The notes under the pieces: model-generated
Told to the model about the DNA's origin: nothing
Seen by the model: only the letters and a program-made list of their open reading frames with translations
The model's database searches: none
In this document: positions 677-61,393 of the stretch, piece by piece
Layout: the number at the start of each line of letters is the position of its first letter
Position numbering within the stretch: position 1 is the stretch's first letter
Program-made: the position numbers and the translations under genes
Origin: Pseudanabaena sp. lw0831
GTDB lineage: Bacteria > Cyanobacteriota > Cyanobacteriia > Pseudanabaenales > Pseudanabaenaceae
Length of the DNA stretch: 64,000 nt
Reading direction: 5' to 3'
NCBI RefSeq assembly: GCF_016584665.1
Contig: NZ_BBJB01000066.1
Span: 62,001-126,000, forward strand

Positions 677-994
677 GGAACTGTAGGGGCTTTGCATTTG
701 CGCCACAATATTCGAACTCCTCACAAAAAATCTCGATTTGCAAATGCTTTACCCTCTTCGCTCCCATAGATAAATTGTGGCTGCGTTGTGGGGGGTGGGC
801 GCAGCATCACTGTTCGGAGCTTGTGGTGATATGCGTGGATGGTGGCGGTAATGCTTCGCCTCTAAGAGATTTTGATATTTTTAGTGAATATTTGGTTATA
901 TTTTTTTTGTTACGAATACCTATTGTTGGGAATATCGCTTTATGCTGGCTAATAAGCGACTGCAGGTTTTGATGTAAATGTGAGGATGTGGGCG
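677..994. other. Gene-free stretch between the Uma2 and CHAT genes
   Basis: About 320 bases without a convincing gene. An open frame on the plus strand (673-972) overlaps the Uma2 stop, but its product is rich in Cys, Trp and aromatic residues with no recognisable family and no ribosome binding site, so I treat it as chance. The stretch presumably holds the promoter of the CHAT gene. I see no strong hairpin. Confidence 0.5.
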
Positions 995-3406
995 ATGAAT
1001 AAGATTGTTGGCGTTGCGATGTTGACATTTTTGTCTTGTGGGCAAGTGCAGATAATGATGAGTGAAAGCGTCCAATCGCAAACAACACAAGATCGTAGGT
1101 CAGAAGCAGATCAATTGATTAATCTGGGAAATCAGCAGTTTAACAAGAGTCAGTATCAAGAAGCCTTACAGTCATATCAATTGGCATTAGATATTTACCG
1201 AGCGATAGAGGATCGGAAAGGTGAGGGAAACTCGCTTAACAATCTGGGCAATACATACGACAGCCTCGGACAATATCAAAAAGCGATTGATTTTTTTCAA
1301 CAATCCTTAATAACCGCAAAGCAAATTGGCGATCTTTATTCGGAAGGACGAGTACTTGGCAACTTAGGGCTTGTTTACGATAGCCTAGGACAGTATCAAA
1401 AAGCAATTGATTATCATCAACAATCCTTAGAAATCTCCAAAAAATTGGGTAATCGTATGGGAGAAAATGCTTCGCTCAACAATCTGGGGCTTGCATACGA
1501 CAGTCTTGGACAGTATCAAAAATCTATCGATTATTATCAGCAATCTTTAGCAATCTCTAAACAAGTTGGAGATTTAAATGGACAAGGAATTTCACTCACA
1601 AACTTGGGAACTGCATACAGAAATCTAAGACAGTACCAAAGAGCCATTGATTTTCATCAGCAATCCTTAGCAATCCTTAAGAATAGCGGCGATCGCAATG
1701 GTGAGGCAATTTCGCTCAATAATTTGGGACTAGCCTACCAAGATTTAGGACAGTATCAAAAAGCGATTGATTTGTTCCAGCAGTCTTTAACAATCAAAAA
1801 GCAAATTGGCGATCGCACTAATGAGGGCAATACTCTCAACAACTTAGGAGATTTATTTTCCCAACTCAATCAACCTGAACTAGCGATTCTCTTCTACAAA
1901 CAATCGATCAATGTTAGAGAATCTATCCGCAAAGACATCCGTGGACTCAACCAAGCAGAACAAAAATCCTATCTTGCCACTGTCGAAAAAACATACCGCA
2001 ATCTCGCAGCTCTCCTTCTCAAACAAGACCGCATCCTCGAAGCCCAACAAGTCCTCGACCTCCTCAAAGTCCAAGAACTCAGTGAATACCTGAAAACCGT
2101 ACGCGGTAACGCTCAAACCCAACAGGGAGTAGATCTCCATCGCCCTGAACAAAATATTATTGCCCTCGCCAATGAACTCAATCAATTGCAACAAAAAGAT
2201 CGTGAAGGCAAACTAAACCAATCAGAACAACAACGCCTCGCCCAACTTGTGCAAACCGAACGAGATCAAAACAAGCAATTTAATTCCTTCCTCAATAGCC
2301 CCGAAATCAAAAAACTAATTGCCGAGCTGCGTCGCGTTGAAGAACAACAAAATCTCAACCTCGCCAGTTATCGCAAACTCCAAAAAGATGTTCTTACTCA
2401 AGTTCCCAATTCCGTCCTGCTCTATCCGCTGATCCTTGACGATCGCCTCGAACTAATCATCATCAATGCCAAGACCCCACCCCTACGCCGCACCGTCAAC
2501 ATCAAACGCGAACAACTCAATCAAGAAATAGTTGACTTCCTTAGCGACCTGCGCGATTCTAGCTCCGAAGACGTTAAAGAACCTGCCCAAAATCTCTACA
2601 AATTGCTAATTCAACCCTTTGAAGCAGAACTGAAAGAGCTAAGAATTGACACGATTATTTATGCCCCCGATGGACAACTGCGTTATATTCCCCTCTCGTC
2701 TCTCTACGATGGCAAACAATGGCTAGCCGAGAAGTATCGTGTCAACAATATCACTGCCGAATCCCTCACATCCTTTGCGCCTAAACCACTTGCGAAACCA
2801 CGCATCTTTGCAGGTGCATTTGGCGGCAAAGCAGGTGACAAAACCCGTGCAGGATTTGATGGCTTACCTGCCACCCTCACTGAAGTCCAAAAAATTGCTA
2901 GTCTTTTCCCCAATACCACTACCTTCACCGAATCAGAATTTAGCAAACAAATCACTGCAACCAAAGCCAATTCCCATACGATTCTGCATCTTGCTACTCA
3001 TGGAGAGCTATCAGTGGGAACTCCTGAAGACTCTTTCATTCTCTTTGGCAATGGTGAAAAAGCGACGATTAGAGAGATTCAAGACTGGTCACTGAGTAAT
3101 GTGGATTTAGTCATCCTCAGTGCTTGTCAGTCAGGACTTGGCAGCAAATTAGGCACTGGTGTCGAGATCTTAGGATTGGGCTATCAAATGCAAGCCGCAG
3201 GAGCAAGAGTCGCGATCGCCTCGCTTTGGGCAGTCAATGATGAAGGTACTCAAGCCCTAATGGAAGCTTTCTATGGCGAACTGAAAAAAGGCGATGTTAC
3301 ATCCACTGAGGCTTTACATAGATCACAAGTTGCTCTGATTAAATCAAAGAAATATAATCATCCTAATTATTGGTCGGCATTTTTTGCGATCGGTAATGGG
3401 TTGTAA
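995..3406 (+). CDS. TPR-CHAT domain protein (caspase-like protease), first copy
   Basis: Encodes about 803 residues. After a short hydrophobic N-terminus there are roughly seven tetratricopeptide units of ~40 residues (consensus NLG-AYDSLGQYQKAIDYHQQSL-I), a helical linker, and a C-terminal CHAT domain (about residue 530 to the end). CHAT belongs to the caspase-like clan CD of cysteine peptidases. The dyad is visible: His669 in HLATHGEL and Cys711 in LSACQSG, followed by the conserved GAR-AIASLW segment. Start: the frame also opens with GTG at 980 and ATG at 986, but ATG 995 has GAGG nine bases upstream and gives the best signal-like N-terminus. It converges on a second CHAT gene with a 33-base gap. 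TPR-CHAT proteins are regulated proteases whose TPR part senses a partner; no substrate can be named here. Confidence 0.88.
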   Translation: MNKIVGVAMLTFLSCGQVQIMMSESVQSQTTQDRRSEADQLINLGNQQFNKSQYQEALQSYQLALDIYRAIEDRKGEGNSLNNLGNTYDSLGQYQKAIDFFQQSLITAKQIGDLYSEGRVLGNLGLVYDSLGQYQKAIDYHQQSLEISKKLGNRMGENASLNNLGLAYDSLGQYQKSIDYYQQSLAISKQVGDLNGQGISLTNLGTAYRNLRQYQRAIDFHQQSLAILKNSGDRNGEAISLNNLGLAYQDLGQYQKAIDLFQQSLTIKKQIGDRTNEGNTLNNLGDLFSQLNQPELAILFYKQSINVRESIRKDIRGLNQAEQKSYLATVEKTYRNLAALLLKQDRILEAQQVLDLLKVQELSEYLKTVRGNAQTQQGVDLHRPEQNIIALANELNQLQQKDREGKLNQSEQQRLAQLVQTERDQNKQFNSFLNSPEIKKLIAELRRVEEQQNLNLASYRKLQKDVLTQVPNSVLLYPLILDDRLELIIINAKTPPLRRTVNIKREQLNQEIVDFLSDLRDSSSEDVKEPAQNLYKLLIQPFEAELKELRIDTIIYAPDGQLRYIPLSSLYDGKQWLAEKYRVNNITAESLTSFAPKPLAKPRIFAGAFGGKAGDKTRAGFDGLPATLTEVQKIASLFPNTTTFTESEFSKQITATKANSHTILHLATHGELSVGTPEDSFILFGNGEKATIREIQDWSLSNVDLVILSACQSGLGSKLGTGVEILGLGYQMQAAGARVAIASLWAVNDEGTQALMEAFYGELKKGDVTSTEALHRSQVALIKSKKYNHPNYWSAFFAIGNGL

Positions 3407-3439
3407 AAACCTTCTGCAAAGCTATTTACTGGTTATTTT

Positions 3440-6067
3440 TTAAAGCCAATTACCTAATAAAACGAAAGGAGACCAGTAATAAGGGTGTTGATATTTAGTT
3501 TGCACAAGTAATGCGATTTGAGATTGTCGAAGCGCTTCCGCCTTTTCAGTTTTGCCACTGGCTAACGCCTGATAAAACTCAGTCATAAATAGAGCTGTAG
3601 CTGCATCGTCAACTGACCAAAGCGAGGCTATTGTACTTCTTGCCCCTGCGCGAACTGACATGCCAGCCAAACCCAATGTTGCGCGGTTATCGCCAACAGC
3701 AGTTTGACAAGCACTAAGAATAAGTAACTCCAGCACTTTATCTTGACCTCGGCTTTGAATTAATTGAGTAAGACTCTCTAAATTTAACCTTCCATCCCAA
3801 GTTATCAAAAATGTATCAGAAACTCTAGAACTAAACTGCCCGTGGGTGGCTAAATGAATAACTGGGAAAGGGCTATTTAACAAGGTTTTTCGTAAATTAT
3901 TTTCAGTAAAGTCTTGATTGAGCAGTTCCCTACTGCTGCGAACTTGGGCTTGAATATTCTTTATTTCTTGGAGCACGTTAGGCAGGGCTGTAAATCCATG
4001 TCGCTCCTCTGAGAGTCCTCCTGCCAGAACTGCAATTTTTTCACGTACCAAAGGCTTGGGATCTAGCAGTTGTAATCCGGGGGTAAGAGCAACGCTGTAG
4101 GTTTGGATCAGAAAGTTTTCCCCATCATGGAGACTTGACATGGGAATATTGCGGAGAGAGCCATCGAGAACGAATACCAGAGTTTTAATATTGCCCTTAC
4201 GCAAATCTGCGATCGCAGGTCGAACTAACCAATCATAAACAGTTTGAGATTTGGATAAATAATCTTGGGTTCTGGGTTCGCGTAAATCTATCCGTAGTTC
4301 ATCGACAATTTGCTCAAGTTCCTTTTGGTTGATACTAGTAGAATAACGGCGCAAAGGCTGATCAGTAACACTGAGAATAACTTCTAATCGATCTTCGAGA
4401 ATAATCGGATAAATTACAGCTGCTCGGCGATCGACATCAGCGATTTCTACTGGATTAGCACTGAGGCAGTCAGAGCGCAAAAAATTAGTTAGTTCGGCTA
4501 ATTGCAAAGATTCAATCACATTTTGGGCTTTTTTAAGATTTTTTTGACTAGAAATAGCACCATCTTCTAATAAAAGTAAACTGATCAATTGCCGATAAAT
4601 AGGTTCAACACTTTCGCGAAATGAGAATTGCAATCCCGCATTAACTGATACCAGATCATTACGAATTTGTCGAAGATTTTCCACTGCCTCACTATAAAAT
4701 GCGATCGCACCAGATATATCTCCTTGTGCGTAGCGTAGCCTTCCCAACTGCCATCGCCAGCGATAGACGATATCAAGAGCATTGATCGATTGAGCAATAA
4801 ACAGAGCTTGGTTAGTTAGATCTTCTGCTTCTTTAAATTGCTGAGACTGCTCATATAATGCACCTAGACTTCCTAATGCATGGGCTTTAGCTCTGCGATC
4901 GCCCAATGACTCTGCTTGACGAATAGTTTCAGCTAAGATGTTTGCGGATTTAAGAAGTAAATCCTGCTTACTAGTGGTATTTTGTTTTGCAAGGATAGCT
5001 AGATGCTGAGCGAAATTTAGCTTGGCATATATAGCGCTTCGGCTGGGAAGTAAGCGATCGCTCTGTACTTCAAGGGTGGAGATTAATGTTTGCGCTTCTG
5101 AGAATTTTTTCTCTTCAATCAAAAGACTAAATTGATTGAGTTCTGCTTGGATTTTTCTAAGGGGCGAGGTCGCGTTACCTGCCGCAGCATTGTAAAACTT
5201 GAATGCTGCATTAGAGTCATATTCTGCACGAGCAAGATTTCCTAAACTTAACTGCGTGGCACCAATTTCTGATTTGAGATTCAGCTTGGAGGCGATTTCT
5301 AGGCTTTGCCCTAATAATTTTTTAGTTTTTGGGAAGTCTTCCATCAATAGCAATCGATCGCCTAAACTACGCAATCCACTGGCTTTCAATTCAGAGTCTG
5401 GTTGAGTTTGTAAGGACAGATCGATAATGCTCAGGACTTCCACCATGCGATGATAAAACCCTAAGGCTTTTAATGCTTGAACTTGATTAAGAAGACTAGA
5501 CATTTTGCCTGTGTGGTCTTCAATTTGACTAAAAGTGTTCGTAGCGGTTTGCCATGAGCTTAGAGCTGATTCCATTTGCCCTAAAGCAAACTGCAAGCTA
5601 CCTTGTGTATTAATGGCTTGAGCAAATATTTTAAGTTTGCCTTTGATATTTGGTTGACTTGCTAAAATCTGTAAACTACTAGCGATCGCACTTTTTGCTT
5701 TGTCCCATTCTCCCAATTGTTGATAACCTAGAGAAATATTACTTAATAGCATGGCTTGCCTTAATTGATTATCTTCTGAATCCTTAAGTGCTCTTTGCCA
5801 AACTATGATCGCATCACTAAATTTCCCCTCTGTATAGAATTCTTTGCCCTGTTGAACTAGATCGGAAACATAAGCTTGATTTATCTCGATATTTTGCAAA
5901 GTAACTAACTGCATTCCAGTACTTTGCGTGATTTGAGCGGCGATCGGTTCAATCTCGAAATATTTGTAAGAAGCGGCACTAACAGACCGATTTTCGATTA
6001 TGGGTAAGATCGTTAAAATGAACCCTAAAAGGGAGAATCGGTAAGCGAGGGTTGTTAATGTCTGCAC
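3440..6067 (-). CDS. TPR-CHAT domain protein (caspase-like protease), second copy
   Basis: Encodes 875 residues. The N-terminus (LAYRFSLLGFILTILPII) is a signal peptide or membrane anchor, so the protein may act in the periplasm or at the membrane. TPR-like helical repeats follow (about residues 70-480), then a CHAT domain (about 590-875) with both catalytic positions intact: His742 in HLATHGQF and Cys787 in LSACQTA, then GARSTIASLWSVDD. Its start lies inside the end of the upstream two-partner-secretion gene (13-base overlap), so the two are translationally coupled and probably act together. Compared with the first copy the TPR units are much more diverged. The pairing of a secreted FHA-type protein with a CHAT protease is the main clue to function; target and trigger are unknown. 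Confidence 0.87.
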   Translation of the reverse strand: MQTLTTLAYRFSLLGFILTILPIIENRSVSAASYKYFEIEPIAAQITQSTGMQLVTLQNIEINQAYVSDLVQQGKEFYTEGKFSDAIIVWQRALKDSEDNQLRQAMLLSNISLGYQQLGEWDKAKSAIASSLQILASQPNIKGKLKIFAQAINTQGSLQFALGQMESALSSWQTATNTFSQIEDHTGKMSSLLNQVQALKALGFYHRMVEVLSIIDLSLQTQPDSELKASGLRSLGDRLLLMEDFPKTKKLLGQSLEIASKLNLKSEIGATQLSLGNLARAEYDSNAAFKFYNAAAGNATSPLRKIQAELNQFSLLIEEKKFSEAQTLISTLEVQSDRLLPSRSAIYAKLNFAQHLAILAKQNTTSKQDLLLKSANILAETIRQAESLGDRRAKAHALGSLGALYEQSQQFKEAEDLTNQALFIAQSINALDIVYRWRWQLGRLRYAQGDISGAIAFYSEAVENLRQIRNDLVSVNAGLQFSFRESVEPIYRQLISLLLLEDGAISSQKNLKKAQNVIESLQLAELTNFLRSDCLSANPVEIADVDRRAAVIYPIILEDRLEVILSVTDQPLRRYSTSINQKELEQIVDELRIDLREPRTQDYLSKSQTVYDWLVRPAIADLRKGNIKTLVFVLDGSLRNIPMSSLHDGENFLIQTYSVALTPGLQLLDPKPLVREKIAVLAGGLSEERHGFTALPNVLQEIKNIQAQVRSSRELLNQDFTENNLRKTLLNSPFPVIHLATHGQFSSRVSDTFLITWDGRLNLESLTQLIQSRGQDKVLELLILSACQTAVGDNRATLGLAGMSVRAGARSTIASLWSVDDAATALFMTEFYQALASGKTEKAEALRQSQIALLVQTKYQHPYYWSPFVLLGNWL

Positions 6068-8484
6068 GATGTTAAAGAATTAATATTTGTTGATCTGAGC
6101 ATAGTATTTGGCTTGTTAGCAATAAGAGCGATGCCACCATCAGTTGCAATCACCCAGTTATTTGCTTCGACAATTTCGAGTTTGGCTTCTGGCTGAGGAT
6201 TGAACGACTGGGAGCTAGATATTACAGGTTCGCTTTCTCCCAAAATGTCATGAGTTAGGCTATCCGTAATTACTTCATTAGGACTTGATGGTAGTCCTCC
6301 TTTACCTGCGATTGTGAACTTACTTTGATTAACATCGGCTTGGCAACGTTGCACAATTAACCTACTTGAATCGTCAATTTTTATAGGAACTCTGCTTAGG
6401 GATCTACTGGGATCTGCTTCAAAGATATTTAATTGAACCACGCCATTAAAATCAGCTCCTAGATCTGAACTGGCTGTGATATCGTTTTTGGGTGTTAGTC
6501 CGCGACGAAAGGCTGTCCCAAAGATGCCAGCCGCACTAATAGTTATTCGACCACCAGATGCTTGCTGGGCATTGGCGGTAATATCGCTATTCTCAAAAGC
6601 TACCAGAGTATCAGTCACAATCTTGATATTACCGCCAGTAGCTAAACCAAAAGCATTTGCCTGAATTCGACTATTGTTAAATAGTTGGAGGTTTGAAGTA
6701 TTTAGAAAAATATTCCCTTCCACACCAGCTCTAGTTGAGGCATCCACGCCGCTACTGCGATCGAGGCGCATAAAATTTGCTGAAATTTGAATGTTGCCAG
6801 CCCCTTTGACTCCTGCTATATCAGAGACTGAGATAATAGCACCGCGATCGACGACTAAGCGATCGCTAATAACTGTTATGTTCCCGCCATTCCCTTGAGC
6901 TGTGTCTTCAACTCTAGCAGCTAAAGACGAAGGGCGATCATTAATGGAGCGACCAATAATCTCCACACTATCTAAAGCTGTCACCCAAATAGAACCAGCA
7001 TCGCCTTTACCAAAGGTACTAGATGAAATTCCAGCCCCATCTTGCAGAGAAAGCTTTGACGTATTGATGAAAATATCTCCAGCTTTTCCTTCTCCACTCC
7101 GACCGACCGAAATCACGAAACCACTGGGATCTCTGCCATTTGGAACAGCACCAATCGCCTCTATGCTCTCGGAAGCTTTTATTGTAATTGAGCCGCCGAT
7201 ACCTTTCCCTTGGACATCAGCCGAAATCTGGGATCTTTGGAGAGATAGTTTTGCTGTCTCGACGATTAGGTTGCCACCTTTTCCATTGGCACTGCCTCTG
7301 AGAGTTGCAGTTATAAAACTATTGATTGCTTCTACATTCTCAGAAGTTTTGATTGATAAGTCCCCTCCAATTCCGTTGCCTAGATTGTTCGTCGAAATCA
7401 CAGCTCCATCTTTCATGAAAAATTTTGCTGCTTCAACAATCATATTGCCGCCATTTCCTGTGGCATTAGGTCTGATCTCTGACACTAAACCGCTTGCGAA
7501 ACGTAGATCTGGAGAAGTACCTGTTAATTCTACTTTGTCAGAAGCTTTGACCAATAATGTGCCGCCATTTTGATTTCCGATTGTGCTGGATTGAATTTGC
7601 GATCCACCAATGAGAGAAATATTTTTTCCTCTGACCTGAATATTGCCACTGCCTAATCCACTCGCATCTACAGAAGCTTTGCCTGAGAGGCGAATATCTT
7701 GAAATATTGTCGCAGCACCATAAGACAACTTTAGCCCTTGATTGGTAGAATTCAGTTGTACTTGTCCAAAGCTTCCTAAACTGCCAAGTTCGATGTTGCC
7801 ACCTGCCGTTTTCAAAGTACCGCCTGCGATCGCAATATCGCCTCCGACCAAAGCAAGAGTCTGGGAAGAATCCACCCGCAACCCCAAGGAGGTGTCAATT
7901 AAATTAGAAGTGGTTCTAATGCCACCGCCGTTTCCTAGTACAGAGATTGGTTGGGGATTGCTCCCCATCTGTAAACCTAATGGCGCACTTATGGTTAATA
8001 ATGCAGAAGCCTGAGGATTAACAGCACTAAATTGAGAACCATCAGCAAAGTTAATACTATTAGCAGTACTTGCAACGAAAGAACCACGGATATCCAATCT
8101 AGCATCCGCACCAAAGACAATGCCATTGGGATTAATCAAATAAAGATTAGCCAATCCATTTGTTTTGAGAATCCCATTGATTTGAGAACTGGAACTTCCA
8201 GTAACTCGCGTGAGAATATTTTGAATATCTATAGCATTGTTAAAAAAAGCTGTGTTAGCTGTTGCGACTGAAAAATCTAAAAAGCTATGAAAAAGATTAT
8301 TCCCAGCCCTAGTACCACCTGTAATATTAATGATATTTGCATTAATTGTGACAACAGAATTTTGAGGCAAACTAGCGTCAGGCAATATTTGCGCCTGAGC
8401 GAAATAATTAATACTTGAATATTCACTCACCCACCAACACAGAGAAGCTAGAAAACATAAAGGAATGGAGGTTGATTGTTTCAT
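6055..8484 (-). CDS. Two-partner-secretion (FHA-type) domain secreted protein
   Basis: About 809 residues from the chosen start. A signal peptide (CFLASLCWWVSEYSS, ending near AQAQ) precedes the TPS/haemagglutination-activity domain: GGTRAGNNLFHSFLDFSV, then NILTRVTG, INGILKTNG and LYLINPNGIVFGADARLDIRGSFVAST. The rest is low-complexity parallel beta-helix sequence with repeated A-G-G-I-I motifs. Such proteins cross the outer membrane through a TpsB (FhaC/ShlB) pore, but none is encoded here. Start: an upstream in-frame ATG at 8541 lies inside a palindromic repeat; ATG 8484 has AGGA about 12 bases upstream and directly precedes the signal sequence. It overlaps the downstream CHAT gene by 13 bases. 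Probably a surface adhesin or sensor that works with the CHAT protease (inference). Confidence 0.85.
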   Translation of the reverse strand: MKQSTSIPLCFLASLCWWVSEYSSINYFAQAQILPDASLPQNSVVTINANIINITGGTRAGNNLFHSFLDFSVATANTAFFNNAIDIQNILTRVTGSSSSQINGILKTNGLANLYLINPNGIVFGADARLDIRGSFVASTANSINFADGSQFSAVNPQASALLTISAPLGLQMGSNPQPISVLGNGGGIRTTSNLIDTSLGLRVDSSQTLALVGGDIAIAGGTLKTAGGNIELGSLGSFGQVQLNSTNQGLKLSYGAATIFQDIRLSGKASVDASGLGSGNIQVRGKNISLIGGSQIQSSTIGNQNGGTLLVKASDKVELTGTSPDLRFASGLVSEIRPNATGNGGNMIVEAAKFFMKDGAVISTNNLGNGIGGDLSIKTSENVEAINSFITATLRGSANGKGGNLIVETAKLSLQRSQISADVQGKGIGGSITIKASESIEAIGAVPNGRDPSGFVISVGRSGEGKAGDIFINTSKLSLQDGAGISSSTFGKGDAGSIWVTALDSVEIIGRSINDRPSSLAARVEDTAQGNGGNITVISDRLVVDRGAIISVSDIAGVKGAGNIQISANFMRLDRSSGVDASTRAGVEGNIFLNTSNLQLFNNSRIQANAFGLATGGNIKIVTDTLVAFENSDITANAQQASGGRITISAAGIFGTAFRRGLTPKNDITASSDLGADFNGVVQLNIFEADPSRSLSRVPIKIDDSSRLIVQRCQADVNQSKFTIAGKGGLPSSPNEVITDSLTHDILGESEPVISSSQSFNPQPEAKLEIVEANNWVIATDGGIALIANKPNTMLRSTNINSLTSCRH

Positions 8485-8532
8485 GGCTTTAGAAAATCCT
8501 AAGGGATGAAAATCAAATAACTTATGCAATTC

Positions 8533-8585
8533 AAAACCCAATATTATTATGGCGGGCTTCGCCCGTCGTAATAATATTGGGTTTT
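8533..8585. repeat. Long intergenic palindrome (AAAACCCAA class), likely terminator
   Basis: An inverted repeat with arms AAAACCCAATATTATTAT and ATAATAATATTGGGTTTT around a GGCGGGCTTCGCCC core. It lies between the stop of the minus-strand DUF928 gene and the start of the TPS gene, so it can act as a terminator for the former on the minus strand. A member of the palindrome family found throughout this window. Confidence 0.75.
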
Positions 8586-8628
8586 ATTTAATTTGCGATC
8601 CTAAAGATATTTAAAGTTCGCTTTGAGA

Positions 8629-9396
8629 TTAATTCTCAGCTTGACAACAGGTCGTAAAGCTTTGCTTGATCATCTCTGGAGCGATGTTTGCCGACTTAAG
8701 GAAAACTGCCCATTCAGTGAATACTTTGCGATCGCTGGGCTGAGAATTCGCCAATGCTGCCAAAGTCTCGATACTATCGTACCAAATTCCCTCAGCAGCA
8801 TAAATAGCTAACTGGTCCAAAGGCTTGGCTTCTCTAAGCTTCTGTGACAAATTGGGCTTGAGTTGAACGCGACGGACAAATCCATTAGCGGTCTCATTCT
8901 TCAATGACAATCTCCATTCATAGGTACTATCATTTTGGAGCGTGGGAGATGATTTAGGGAGGGTAATTCCGACAATTCCACCAGAAGTTTTTACTGGAAA
9001 AGAGAATCTGTGAATCTTTTTGATTTGAGAGGGAAGATGTTGGTACAGCGTAAAAATGGCAGTGCCAGAAGTTCTTGGCAAGCTGATATAAAAGGTAGGA
9101 CGTTCAGAAACTGTTAAAGGATAATAATCTAGCTTGCTAATCGCCGATACTGGTAGTAATGGAATTAAGCAAGAATTAACCTCGTAGCATTCAACGGGGC
9201 GAGTCCCGCCTGCGGTAGTCGGATCTTTGGGAACCCCTGAGCCTTTAGGCGGAATAAATTCAGCTTTTACTTTTTGAGAAGTAAAAGCTTCAGATTGAGC
9301 CGCTAATTTGTCATTTGTTAGACTGCTTGATCCTAAATTTAATAAGATGACCAAGGCAGTAGTTTTTATGCAAATATTTAAAGCCTGTGTAAACAT
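8629..9396 (-). CDS. DUF928 domain protein
   Basis: About 255 residues with an N-terminal signal sequence (CIKTTALVILLNLGSS). DUF928 hallmarks are GGTRPVEC near residue 65, the SERPTFYISLPRTSGTAIFTL segment, a GIVGITLPKS strand, the TYEWRLSL strand with FVRRVQL after it, and YAAEGIWYDSIETLA near the C-terminus. DUF928 proteins are predicted exported cyanobacterial proteins of unknown function, in my recollection often encoded beside CHASE2 and CHAT genes. The first in-frame ATG (9432) would leave only 8 bases to the divergent CHASE2 gene; ATG 9396 has AAGAGA upstream and fits the signal peptide better. Followed on the same strand by the TPS and CHAT genes, so the three may be one transcription unit interrupted by a hairpin. 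Confidence 0.82.
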   Translation of the reverse strand: MFTQALNICIKTTALVILLNLGSSSLTNDKLAAQSEAFTSQKVKAEFIPPKGSGVPKDPTTAGGTRPVECYEVNSCLIPLLPVSAISKLDYYPLTVSERPTFYISLPRTSGTAIFTLYQHLPSQIKKIHRFSFPVKTSGGIVGITLPKSSPTLQNDSTYEWRLSLKNETANGFVRRVQLKPNLSQKLREAKPLDQLAIYAAEGIWYDSIETLAALANSQPSDRKVFTEWAVFLKSANIAPEMIKQSFTTCCQAEN

Positions 9397-9440
9397 AGCT
9401 AAAATTCTCTTAGGATGATCCAAATGTACCATTTTAAAGT

Positions 9441-11210
9441 ATGAAACAGGGGTCTAGGCTAGGTATATATTTACTAACTACTACCCTAGTGGGACTGATA
9501 GGACTAGGTAGTCATTTTGGTTTGTTTGCAATTTTTGAGTTAAGAGCTTATGACGCATTAAAGCAAATTAGCCCAAAAGAAGAACGCGATCGCCGAATTG
9601 TGATTGTTGAGATCGATGAAGAAGGCATTAAAAAAATGGGTAAATGGCCAATGTCCGATCGCGATATGGCTTTACTAATCCGCAATCTCAAGACTCAGCA
9701 GCCAGCAGTCATCGGTATTGACATCTACCGCAATCTTCCGATCGAGCCAGGACAAGAAGAACTCGCAGAAATCTTTGCAAATACATCTAATTTAATTGGG
9801 ATTGCTAAAATTTCTAGAGAGTCAGTGCCACCGCCACCGATCTTAGAATCGAAAGGTCAAATAGGAGCCAGTGACTTGGTTCTAGATATTGACGGCAAAA
9901 TTCGGCGCAATTTAATTTTTATTAGCGATCGCCAATCATTTGGAACAAAACTGGCTACTACTTATCTCGCGCAAAAAGGGATAAGTTTTAATCCAGACGA
10001 TACAGATCGCAATAAATTTCGCTTAGGTAAAGCGAAATTTTTGCCGCTTACAGGTAATGAAGGCGAATATAACTCTGACAACACTGATGGTTACCAAACG
10101 CTGTTTAACTATCGCGGCGAAGCTAAAGACTTTGAAACCATTTCCGTAACCAATGTCCTCGAAAATCTTATCCCTACCGACTTACTTCGCGATCGCATTG
10201 TGTTAGTTGGGACAACTGCTCCGAGCTTAAACGATATGCACCAAAGTCCCTACAATCCTAGTTTAATGGCAGGAGTAATCGTCCATGCTAACAGCACCAG
10301 TCAAATTATCAGTGCGGCTCTAGATGGTCGAGTGCTTTTACAAGCAACTAGCAAGCCTTTAAATTATTTATGGATTTTACTATGGGCGATTGTCGGCGCA
10401 ACCTGTGGCGCGAAATTTATTCGTAATTGGCAATCGTCAATTCTGGCTGTATTTTTAGGCTTGATCATAATTACAATTATGGACTACTACGCATTCCAGT
10501 ATGGATGGTGGATTCCGATCATCACGCCGATGGTGTCACTGCTCAGTGTCGCTATCGCAATTACGATTTGGGAGCTAGGACGATATCTGAGGCTCTCCTA
10601 TAAACGCCTAGAAGAGTATGCTCGTGATCTCGAACAAAAAGTCAGCGATCGCACGATCGAACTTCAACGGGCTAATTTAGAGCTATCGCGCCTAGCGCAT
10701 GTAGATGGCCTAACTCAGATTGCAAATCGTCGTAGCTTTGATGACTTCCTATCTAAAGAATGGCAACGACATCTGCGAGAACAACAACCTTTATCTTTAA
10801 TTCTGATCGATATCGACTATTTCAAGCGCTACAACGATCACTACGGACATCAGGGTGGAGATGAATGCTTGATTCAAGTTGCACAGACGATCAATCTAGT
10901 TCCACAACGCCCATCAGACTTAGTTGCTCGCTACGGTGGGGAGGAATTTGTTGTGGTTTTGCCCAACACTAATACAGAAGGAGCATTAATCTTTGCAGAT
11001 TCGATTCAAAATGCAATTGCAAGTCTTGCCATTCCTCACGAAAAGTCAGATGTAAATGAATATGTCACCTTGAGCTTGGGAGTCGCCTGTCTAATTCCTA
11101 CACCTGACTCTATTGCTGAAGAATTAATTGCCTCTGCCGATCAGTCATTGTATGAAGCCAAGGCGCAAGGTCGCAATCGCGCAATCTCCATGTCAAAACC
11201 CAAGGATTGA
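9441..11210 (+). CDS. CHASE2 sensor-diguanylate cyclase (CHASE2-3TM-GGDEF)
   Basis: Encodes 589 residues. An N-terminal transmembrane helix (IYLLTTTLVGLIGLGSHFGL) leads into a periplasmic CHASE2 domain (about 30-300; note ELRAYDALK, VIGIDIYRNLP and LRDRIVLVGTTAPSLNDMHQSP). Three further membrane helices (about 305-380), a short coiled coil, then a GGDEF domain (about 420-585). The active-site motif is GGEEF at 499-503, with an RxxD inhibitory site (RPSD, 490-493) five residues before it, so the enzyme should make cyclic-di-GMP from two GTP and be product-inhibited. It diverges from the DUF928-TPS-CHAT genes, with which it may share a promoter region. The final codons are read from the left arm of a palindrome. 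Confidence 0.93.
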   Translation: MKQGSRLGIYLLTTTLVGLIGLGSHFGLFAIFELRAYDALKQISPKEERDRRIVIVEIDEEGIKKMGKWPMSDRDMALLIRNLKTQQPAVIGIDIYRNLPIEPGQEELAEIFANTSNLIGIAKISRESVPPPPILESKGQIGASDLVLDIDGKIRRNLIFISDRQSFGTKLATTYLAQKGISFNPDDTDRNKFRLGKAKFLPLTGNEGEYNSDNTDGYQTLFNYRGEAKDFETISVTNVLENLIPTDLLRDRIVLVGTTAPSLNDMHQSPYNPSLMAGVIVHANSTSQIISAALDGRVLLQATSKPLNYLWILLWAIVGATCGAKFIRNWQSSILAVFLGLIIITIMDYYAFQYGWWIPIITPMVSLLSVAIAITIWELGRYLRLSYKRLEEYARDLEQKVSDRTIELQRANLELSRLAHVDGLTQIANRRSFDDFLSKEWQRHLREQQPLSLILIDIDYFKRYNDHYGHQGGDECLIQVAQTINLVPQRPSDLVARYGGEEFVVVLPNTNTEGALIFADSIQNAIASLAIPHEKSDVNEYVTLSLGVACLIPTPDSIAEELIASADQSLYEAKAQGRNRAISMSKPKD

Positions 11211-61284: not shown

Positions 61285-61393
61285 CTTACAGCGCTTTGCG
61301 CTCAAACCCGAACCAATAATTTTTTAAAAGTGGTGCTTCGCACCACTTTTAAAAAATTATTGGTTCGTTTGAGGCGGGCAAAGTCCGCCTCAA
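61285..61393. repeat. Composite repeat: AAAAGTGGTGC palindrome plus a second hairpin
   Basis: Left flank GCGCTTTGCGCTCAAACCC, then a near-perfect stem at 61309-61367 (CGAACCAATAATTTTTTAAA + AGTGGTGC and complement, loop TTC), then TTGAGGCGGGC-AAAG-CCGCCTCAA (61369-61393). The first two parts match the element at 56815-56903. Lies between the DUF58 stop and the start of the downstream membrane-protein gene. Confidence 0.8.

Follow-up and report, generated by a model that had tools for sequence, protein, structure and literature searches.

In Pseudomonas aeruginosa, a cysteine hook at the C-terminus holds the two-partner secretion (TPS) adhesin CdrA (PMC7616799), which periplasmic LapG frees when cyclic di-GMP (c-di-GMP) is low (PMC5422565); in both CdrA and HMW1, the C-terminus is kept at the TpsB pore by a cysteine-bearing anchor (PMC5422565, PMC7616799). 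According to a 2017 review, the genes for TPS maturation proteases appear to lie outside TPS operons (PMC5422565). In cyanobacteria, Dgc2 of Leptolyngbya boryana is a CHASE2-GGDEF enzyme that suppresses motility and biofilm (PMC10581220), and an array of DUF928, CHASE2 and WD40 has been reported in Nostoc punctiforme, that one of seven cyanobacteria surveyed (PMC5587647). Here we analyzed a stretch of 64,000 nt from Pseudanabaena sp. lw0831 (contig NZ_BBJB01000066.1, 62,001-126,000, forward strand; hereafter the window, in whose positions all coordinates are given), which holds a cassette encoding a TPS/FHA-type exoprotein (TpsA), a TPR-CHAT protein (CHAT2), a DUF928 protein and a CHASE2-GGDEF protein. 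Unlike the TPS operons of the 2017 review (PMC5422565), the cassette has its putative protease gene adjoining that of TpsA.

The TPS-CHAT-DUF928-CHASE2 cassette is real and widespread in cyanobacteria. Families were detected with hidden Markov models built from the window proteins and iterated on their matches, and absolute counts are approximate; related genomes among those surveyed are non-independent. In a sample of the phylum, DUF928 was present in 26 of 78 genomes, all from the class to which the window belongs. At 80 DUF928 loci from 20 other genomes, CHAT was found in 37, TPS in 30 and TpsB in 13, whereas 40 random 20-kb control windows from six of those genomes held no CHAT or TPS and a single TpsB. 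CHASE2 was found at 51/80 of these loci compared to 0/40 controls; the sequence-only reading that preceded this work had taken the families for one module, and the survey, with co-occurrence beyond chance, bears them out as one recurring set. CHAT2 was chosen as a second anchor because the 26-row DUF928 alignment offered no usable conserved stretch, and its relatives in GTDB genomes provided 80 named loci. All four families stood together in 30 of these, from at least 14 named genera, and among the 48 loci longer than 18 kb TPS was present in 36, DUF928 in 38 and CHASE2 in 37. Carriers of the cassette include Calothrix sp. PCC 7103, Oscillatoria sp. PCC 10802 and Scytonema sp. NIES-4073. In a third sample, 24 genomes spread evenly over the class, there were 126 TPS proteins: 34 were fused to CHAT in one frame, 37 had a cassette-type CHAT within 12 kb and 55 had neither. 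A cassette CHAT thus lay within 12 kb of 37/92 unfused TPS proteins, where 1.6 were expected, and in 35 cases TPS was immediately upstream of CHAT, with gaps ranging from -122 to 448 bases.

The gene set also recurs within the source genome (5.26 Mb, 118 contigs), where family matches number 32 for CHAT, 8 for DUF928, 9 for TPS and 9 for CHASE2. All four families occur together at four sites, namely C66 (the window), C5, C44 and C67. Of the eight DUF928 genes, four have a CHASE2 gene within 10 kb, four a TPS gene (binomial 8e-5 in each case) and four any CHAT gene (8e-3); three are near a CHAT of the cassette clade defined below (~2e-4 by the same formula), with the CHAT of C67 falling outside that clade. 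At C95 there are two TPS genes and one CHAT, the latter 84% identical to its counterpart in Pseudanabaena sp. SR411, and at C16 TPS and CHAT are parts of one 1505-aa protein.

The window carries a second CHAT gene, CHAT1, convergent with CHAT2. A tree built from 71 CHAT domains placed CHAT2 in a 46-member clade (support 100/100) that takes in 30 of the 36 CHATs of DUF928 loci and none of the non-cassette CHATs of the source genome; CHAT1 grouped with 13 other non-cassette CHATs of that genome (support 100/99). The two CHAT proteases had been proposed as a unit. Cassettes normally have one per locus (81 CHATs in all at the 80 CHAT2-anchored loci), and CHAT1 was ruled out as a core member by its separate clade and its status as a merely occasional neighbour. 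It may be a local addition, because in the nearest relative (G107) the CHAT1-type gene in the same convergent position is 54% identical to that of the window, compared to 80% for CHAT2 and 72% for TPS. The source genome has fourteen CHAT1-type genes, a recent-looking expansion, with CHAT1 being 76% identical to the copy at C44.

TPR-CHAT proteases include HetF. The predicted structure of CHAT2 (pLDDT 86) consists of a TPR solenoid and a CHAT domain, and its top match in the PDB is Csx29 (8eey_B), with separase among the next ones; second-best was the transmembrane anti-sigma factor DdvA (8rw5, 8rot). Motifs HLATHG and LSAC place the dyads at H742/C787 in CHAT2 and at H669/C711 in CHAT1 (counted from ATG 995), and among cassette CHATs HxxTH is found in 80/81 and SAC in 79/81. 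By fold model and motifs, CHAT2 has the predicted CHAT fold and the intact His/Cys dyad of a clan CD peptidase, with putative proteolytic activity. Like Csx29/Craspase and separase, it has a CHAT domain with this dyad behind helical repeats; it differs from them in looking exported, in lying in a TPS cassette and in having no gRAMP/Cas7-11 or cohesin partner. The NCBIfam model of Csx29 gave CHAT1 22 bits against a cut-off of 300 and did not match CHAT2.

By a hydropathy rule, an N-terminal hydrophobic segment was present in 93% of cassette CHATs compared to 34% of control open reading frames (ORFs). A later transmembrane-like segment was seen in 2%, and an AxA-like site in 72/81. Because of these export-type N-termini and the TPS fusions, we place the cassette CHATs in the envelope, to which they are probably exported.

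In window TpsA a signal peptide precedes the N-terminal TPS domain, as in type Vb exoproteins, and the protein shares with FHA, HMW1 and HxuA this domain with its NPNG motif, the signal peptide and C-terminal cysteines. It differs from them in that no TpsB adjoins it, and cassettes further show CHAT fusions and a C-terminal GRGGLP/EAxGW region. At the end of unfused cassette TpsA proteins, a Cys about 100 aa from the terminus is followed 11-20 aa on by GRGGLP, then by EAxGW and by a last Cys near the end; in window TpsA (828 residues) these cysteines are C733 and C826. Exactly two Cys lie beyond residue 45 in 67 of the 85 TpsA proteins with this tag. In the source genome, all five TpsA proteins that neighbour a cassette-clade CHAT have the two-Cys region, and the four others lack it (5/5 and 0/4). 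Class-wide, the tag was found in 18/37 TpsA proteins near a cassette CHAT and 8/55 elsewhere (Fisher 7e-4), and in 2/34 CHAT-fused TPS proteins, as weak matches. Per genome, the numbers of tags and of cassette CHATs are correlated (rho 0.85; 0.73 after removing TPS number). The association between the tag and cassette CHATs is real yet incomplete, and the two-Cys region is a candidate anchor and a candidate CHAT target. The idea that EAxGW also marks secreted proteins other than TPS was rejected: the non-TPS ORFs with the motif sit in these same loci and resemble TPS fragments. TpsA and TpsB form one ORF at L095:2715-7040 and at L120:1-4290, and in the former the two-Cys region precedes the POTRA domain.

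On the sensor side, the window protein has the domains of a CHASE2 diguanylate cyclase, with an intact GGDEF signature, RPSDLVARYGGEEF (active site, GGEEF, plus RxxD). Dgc2 likewise has CHASE2 ahead of GGDEF, whereas it also has a PAS domain and no cassette has been described for it. DUF928 stands beside CHASE2 here as in the Nostoc punctiforme array, for which CHAT and TPS are unmentioned. The output domains of 39 cassette CHASE2 proteins were CHAT (14), HATPase (11), nucleotide cyclase (8), GGDEF (5) and EAL (3), and the four copies in the source genome carry GGDEF (window and C5), histidine kinase (C44) and nucleotide cyclase (C67); the idea of c-di-GMP as the fixed output finds no support. 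Across loci and with no correction for species history, divergence of CHASE2 followed that of DUF928 (rho 0.62) and of CHAT (rho 0.60), the distances of these three families inter-correlated at rho 0.36-0.62, and TPS divergence barely followed the other families (about 0.1-0.2). The suggested link between CHASE2 sensing and CHAT gains indirect support from this correlated divergence and from the 14/39 CHASE2 proteins fused to CHAT. A fold search with DUF928 returned weak immunoglobulin-type matches (TM-score by query length <=0.26 among the matches listed), from which no function was drawn.

Other gene arrangements around CHASE2 were also observed. CHAT-CHASE2 fusions with CHAT ahead of CHASE2 occur at L187, L192, L200, L240 and others, and in the source genome at L263:10338-12785; their motifs FNSC (Cys) and FAGH (His) were both present in 37 ORFs, a count that includes some genes twice. 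DUF1822 directly adjoins CHASE2 on the same strand in 28/160 loci, for example at L240:15830-16804 and, in the source genome, at L263:8611-9600. In some of these DUF1822 loci a conserved 224-aa protein with no Pfam match comes next, and a guess would be that it is sigma-factor-like.

We tentatively favour, with slightly less than even confidence, a reading in which the exported CHAT acts on a C-terminally anchored TpsA in the envelope and DUF928-CHASE2 is a sensor with exchangeable outputs. In support of this reading we count the conserved linkage, the TPS-CHAT fusions, the gene order, the export-type N-termini, the catalytic motifs with the structural match and the two-Cys region. TpsA would be an adhesin-like protein that a TpsB pore secretes, with the two-Cys region probably retaining its C-terminal end on the periplasmic face of the outer membrane. 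CHAT2, whose gene overlaps that of TpsA, would leave the cytoplasm by its signal peptide and serve as a cysteine protease in the processing or release of anchored TpsA. DUF928 may be an exported adaptor working with the periplasmic CHASE2 domain, and the sensor would report or set the surface state via its exchangeable output, which here would be c-di-GMP. Linkage, the separate CHAT clade, the intact dyads with the predicted fold, the fusions and the two-Cys region are observed; we infer export, from the N-terminal sequence, as well as the anchoring, the cutting of TpsA by CHAT, the DUF928-CHASE2 binding and the direction of control. Action of CHAT on TpsA is favoured because of the CdrA and HMW1 anchors and the release by LapG, for each of which the cassette would have an unrelated counterpart. 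The likeness to CdrAB-LapG-LapD would comprise a TPS adhesin, a C-terminal Cys anchor, a periplasmic cysteine protease and a link to c-di-GMP. The cassette protease, however, is CHAT and not LapG, and the sensor is CHASE2 with variable outputs and not the LapD receptor; at the locus, Pfam shows just CHAT and CHASE2-GGDEF, with no LapG-family protease or LapD receptor. The cassette may therefore be one that works like Lap-type release without being a member. A more specific version is doubtful, if possible: an operon-encoded switch in which CHAT controls release of the two-Cys-anchored adhesin and DUF928-CHASE2 couples it to second-messenger or phosphorelay outputs, as an independent counterpart of LapG/LapD. 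A surface-contact role, as in the sequence-only reading, is possible.

Several observations weigh against action of CHAT on an anchored TpsA. The divergence of TPS and CHAT is correlated at rho 0.10, contrary to tight one-to-one recognition. No tag was detectable in 19/37 TpsA proteins near cassette CHATs, and eight of the 55 lacking such a neighbour have one. The two Cys are ~95 residues apart, wider than expected for a compact disulfide loop. All six TpsB genes of the genome lie beside another TpsA; since no TpsB gene lies in the window itself, secretion of TpsA must use one in trans. The CHASE2 output varies, and c-di-GMP is therefore one output among several and non-essential to the module. 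Finally, signal peptides were called by the hydropathy rule and not by SignalP.

CHAT could instead be an effector, a protease carried or displayed by TpsA against neighbour cells or extracellular proteins in the style of contact-dependent or polymorphic toxins, with DUF928 perhaps protecting the producer. CHAT does sit C-terminally in the TPS-CHAT fusions, the toxin position, polymorphic toxins with caspase-like C-terminal domains have been described (PMC3482391), and there are multiple copies per genome. We nevertheless consider this unlikely: the CHAT end is conserved and holds many invariant columns, the majority of cassette CHATs stand alone and carry an export-type N-terminus of their own, and clustering of neighbours gave no recurrent small immunity-like gene, so that neither the variable C-terminal toxin nor the neighbouring immunity gene of such systems was found here. 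Of similarly low probability is a CHAT inside the sensor pathway, which, triggered by the state of TpsA/DUF928, would cut DUF928, CHASE2 or an envelope regulator, with TpsA as the ligand and not the substrate, in the manner of site-1-protease signalling. The correlated CHASE2, DUF928 and CHAT distances, the exchangeable TPS, the CHAT-fused CHASE2 proteins and the DUF1822 and second conserved gene next to CHASE2 in some loci all fit it. Those correlations, however, carry no correction for species history, CHAT is often fused to TPS and adjoins it in many loci, and the CHAT that precedes CHASE2 in the fusions is probably cytoplasmic and hence no stand-in for an exported CHAT. By analogy with the Lap systems, action of CHAT on TpsA is tentatively ranked above both of these alternatives.

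The sequence-only reading had also raised programmed death set off by extracellular cues. The CHAT fold is caspase-like and the TPR-CHAT protease Csx29 works in a CRISPR defence system, yet a death module is very improbable given that cassette CHATs look exported, are often fused to secreted TPS and occur in several copies per genome; a PADLOC scan gave no defence-system match, just one generic model for TPR proteins and a single match to a TPR region. That the families coincidentally pile up in the same variable regions has a negligible chance of being true, since, although every family is expanded in these genomes, the counts refute it (CHAT, TPS and CHASE2 in 0/40 random windows), as do the distinct CHAT clade, the fusions and the recurrent gene order and overlaps.

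The component families are known already, and DUF928 beside CHASE2 has been noted once before (PMC5587647). In the open-access literature we found no description of the TPS-CHAT-DUF928-CHASE2 set, nor of CHAT with TPS/FHA in cyanobacteria, in agreement with the earlier statement that the module is not described as one system. If the favoured reading is true, it gives roles to four expanded families mostly annotated by domain alone (exported CHAT, TPS, DUF928 and CHASE2). CHAT is often discussed as a death or defence protease, and adhesin-tied exported CHATs alter that expectation; the switch, if true, would give CHAT proteases an envelope role.

The ORF map and Pfam confirmed base for base the five genes first read from the window, their strands, both dyads, the 33-base gap between CHAT1 and CHAT2 (3407-3439) and the 13-base overlap of the CHAT2 and TpsA ORFs (6055-6067). 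Pfam E-values were 6e-57 and 8e-61 for the two CHAT proteins, 4e-59 for TPS, 6e-41 for DUF928, 7e-64 for CHASE2 and 9e-56 for GGDEF.

Features of the cassette and its neighbours in the window (aa, amino acid positions in the protein)
Feature	Position	Strand	Remarks
CHAT1	ORF 980-3406, ATG 995 (995..3406)	+	exported-looking TPR-CHAT; neighbour, non-core
CHAT2	3440..6067	-	core member; ORF and Pfam CHAT
CHAT2 parts	aa 1-32 (about); aa 58-475; aa 607-873		signal-peptide-like; TPR solenoid; CHAT domain, His742/Cys787
TpsA (TPS/FHA-type exoprotein)	ORF 6055-8541, likely 6055..8484	-	core member
TpsA TPS domain	aa 50-303		NPNG motif; PF05860 full length and TIGR01901
TpsA C-terminal two-cysteine region	6055..6345	-	C733 ... 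GKGGLP ... EANNW ... C826
DUF928 gene	8629..9432	-	core member; signal helix
DUF928 protein parts	aa 113-188; aa 193-255		Ig-like beta sandwich; helical C-terminus
CHASE2-GGDEF gene	9441..11210	+	CHASE2 aa 20-320, GGDEF aa 419-580; core; divergent from DUF928
Hairpin, 20-bp arms	8536..8582	no strand	between DUF928 and TpsA genes

The start of TpsA is more likely ATG 8484 than TTG 8541. A promoter scan was at background level (26 found compared to 22.6 expected). Among the loci retrieved, L236, on a contig labelled Candidatus Gracilibacteria, holds a typical cyanobacterial TPS-CHAT-DUF928 cassette, probably through misbinning, and at L079:4028-9496 a glycosyltransferase 2 domain stands in frame ahead of a TPS-CHAT ORF, as a real fusion or a readthrough. 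The hairpin between the DUF928 and TpsA genes (z -6.9) is possibly a terminator or attenuator, and its core, GGCGGGCTTCGCCCG, is found again, with mismatches, at 61373-61389.

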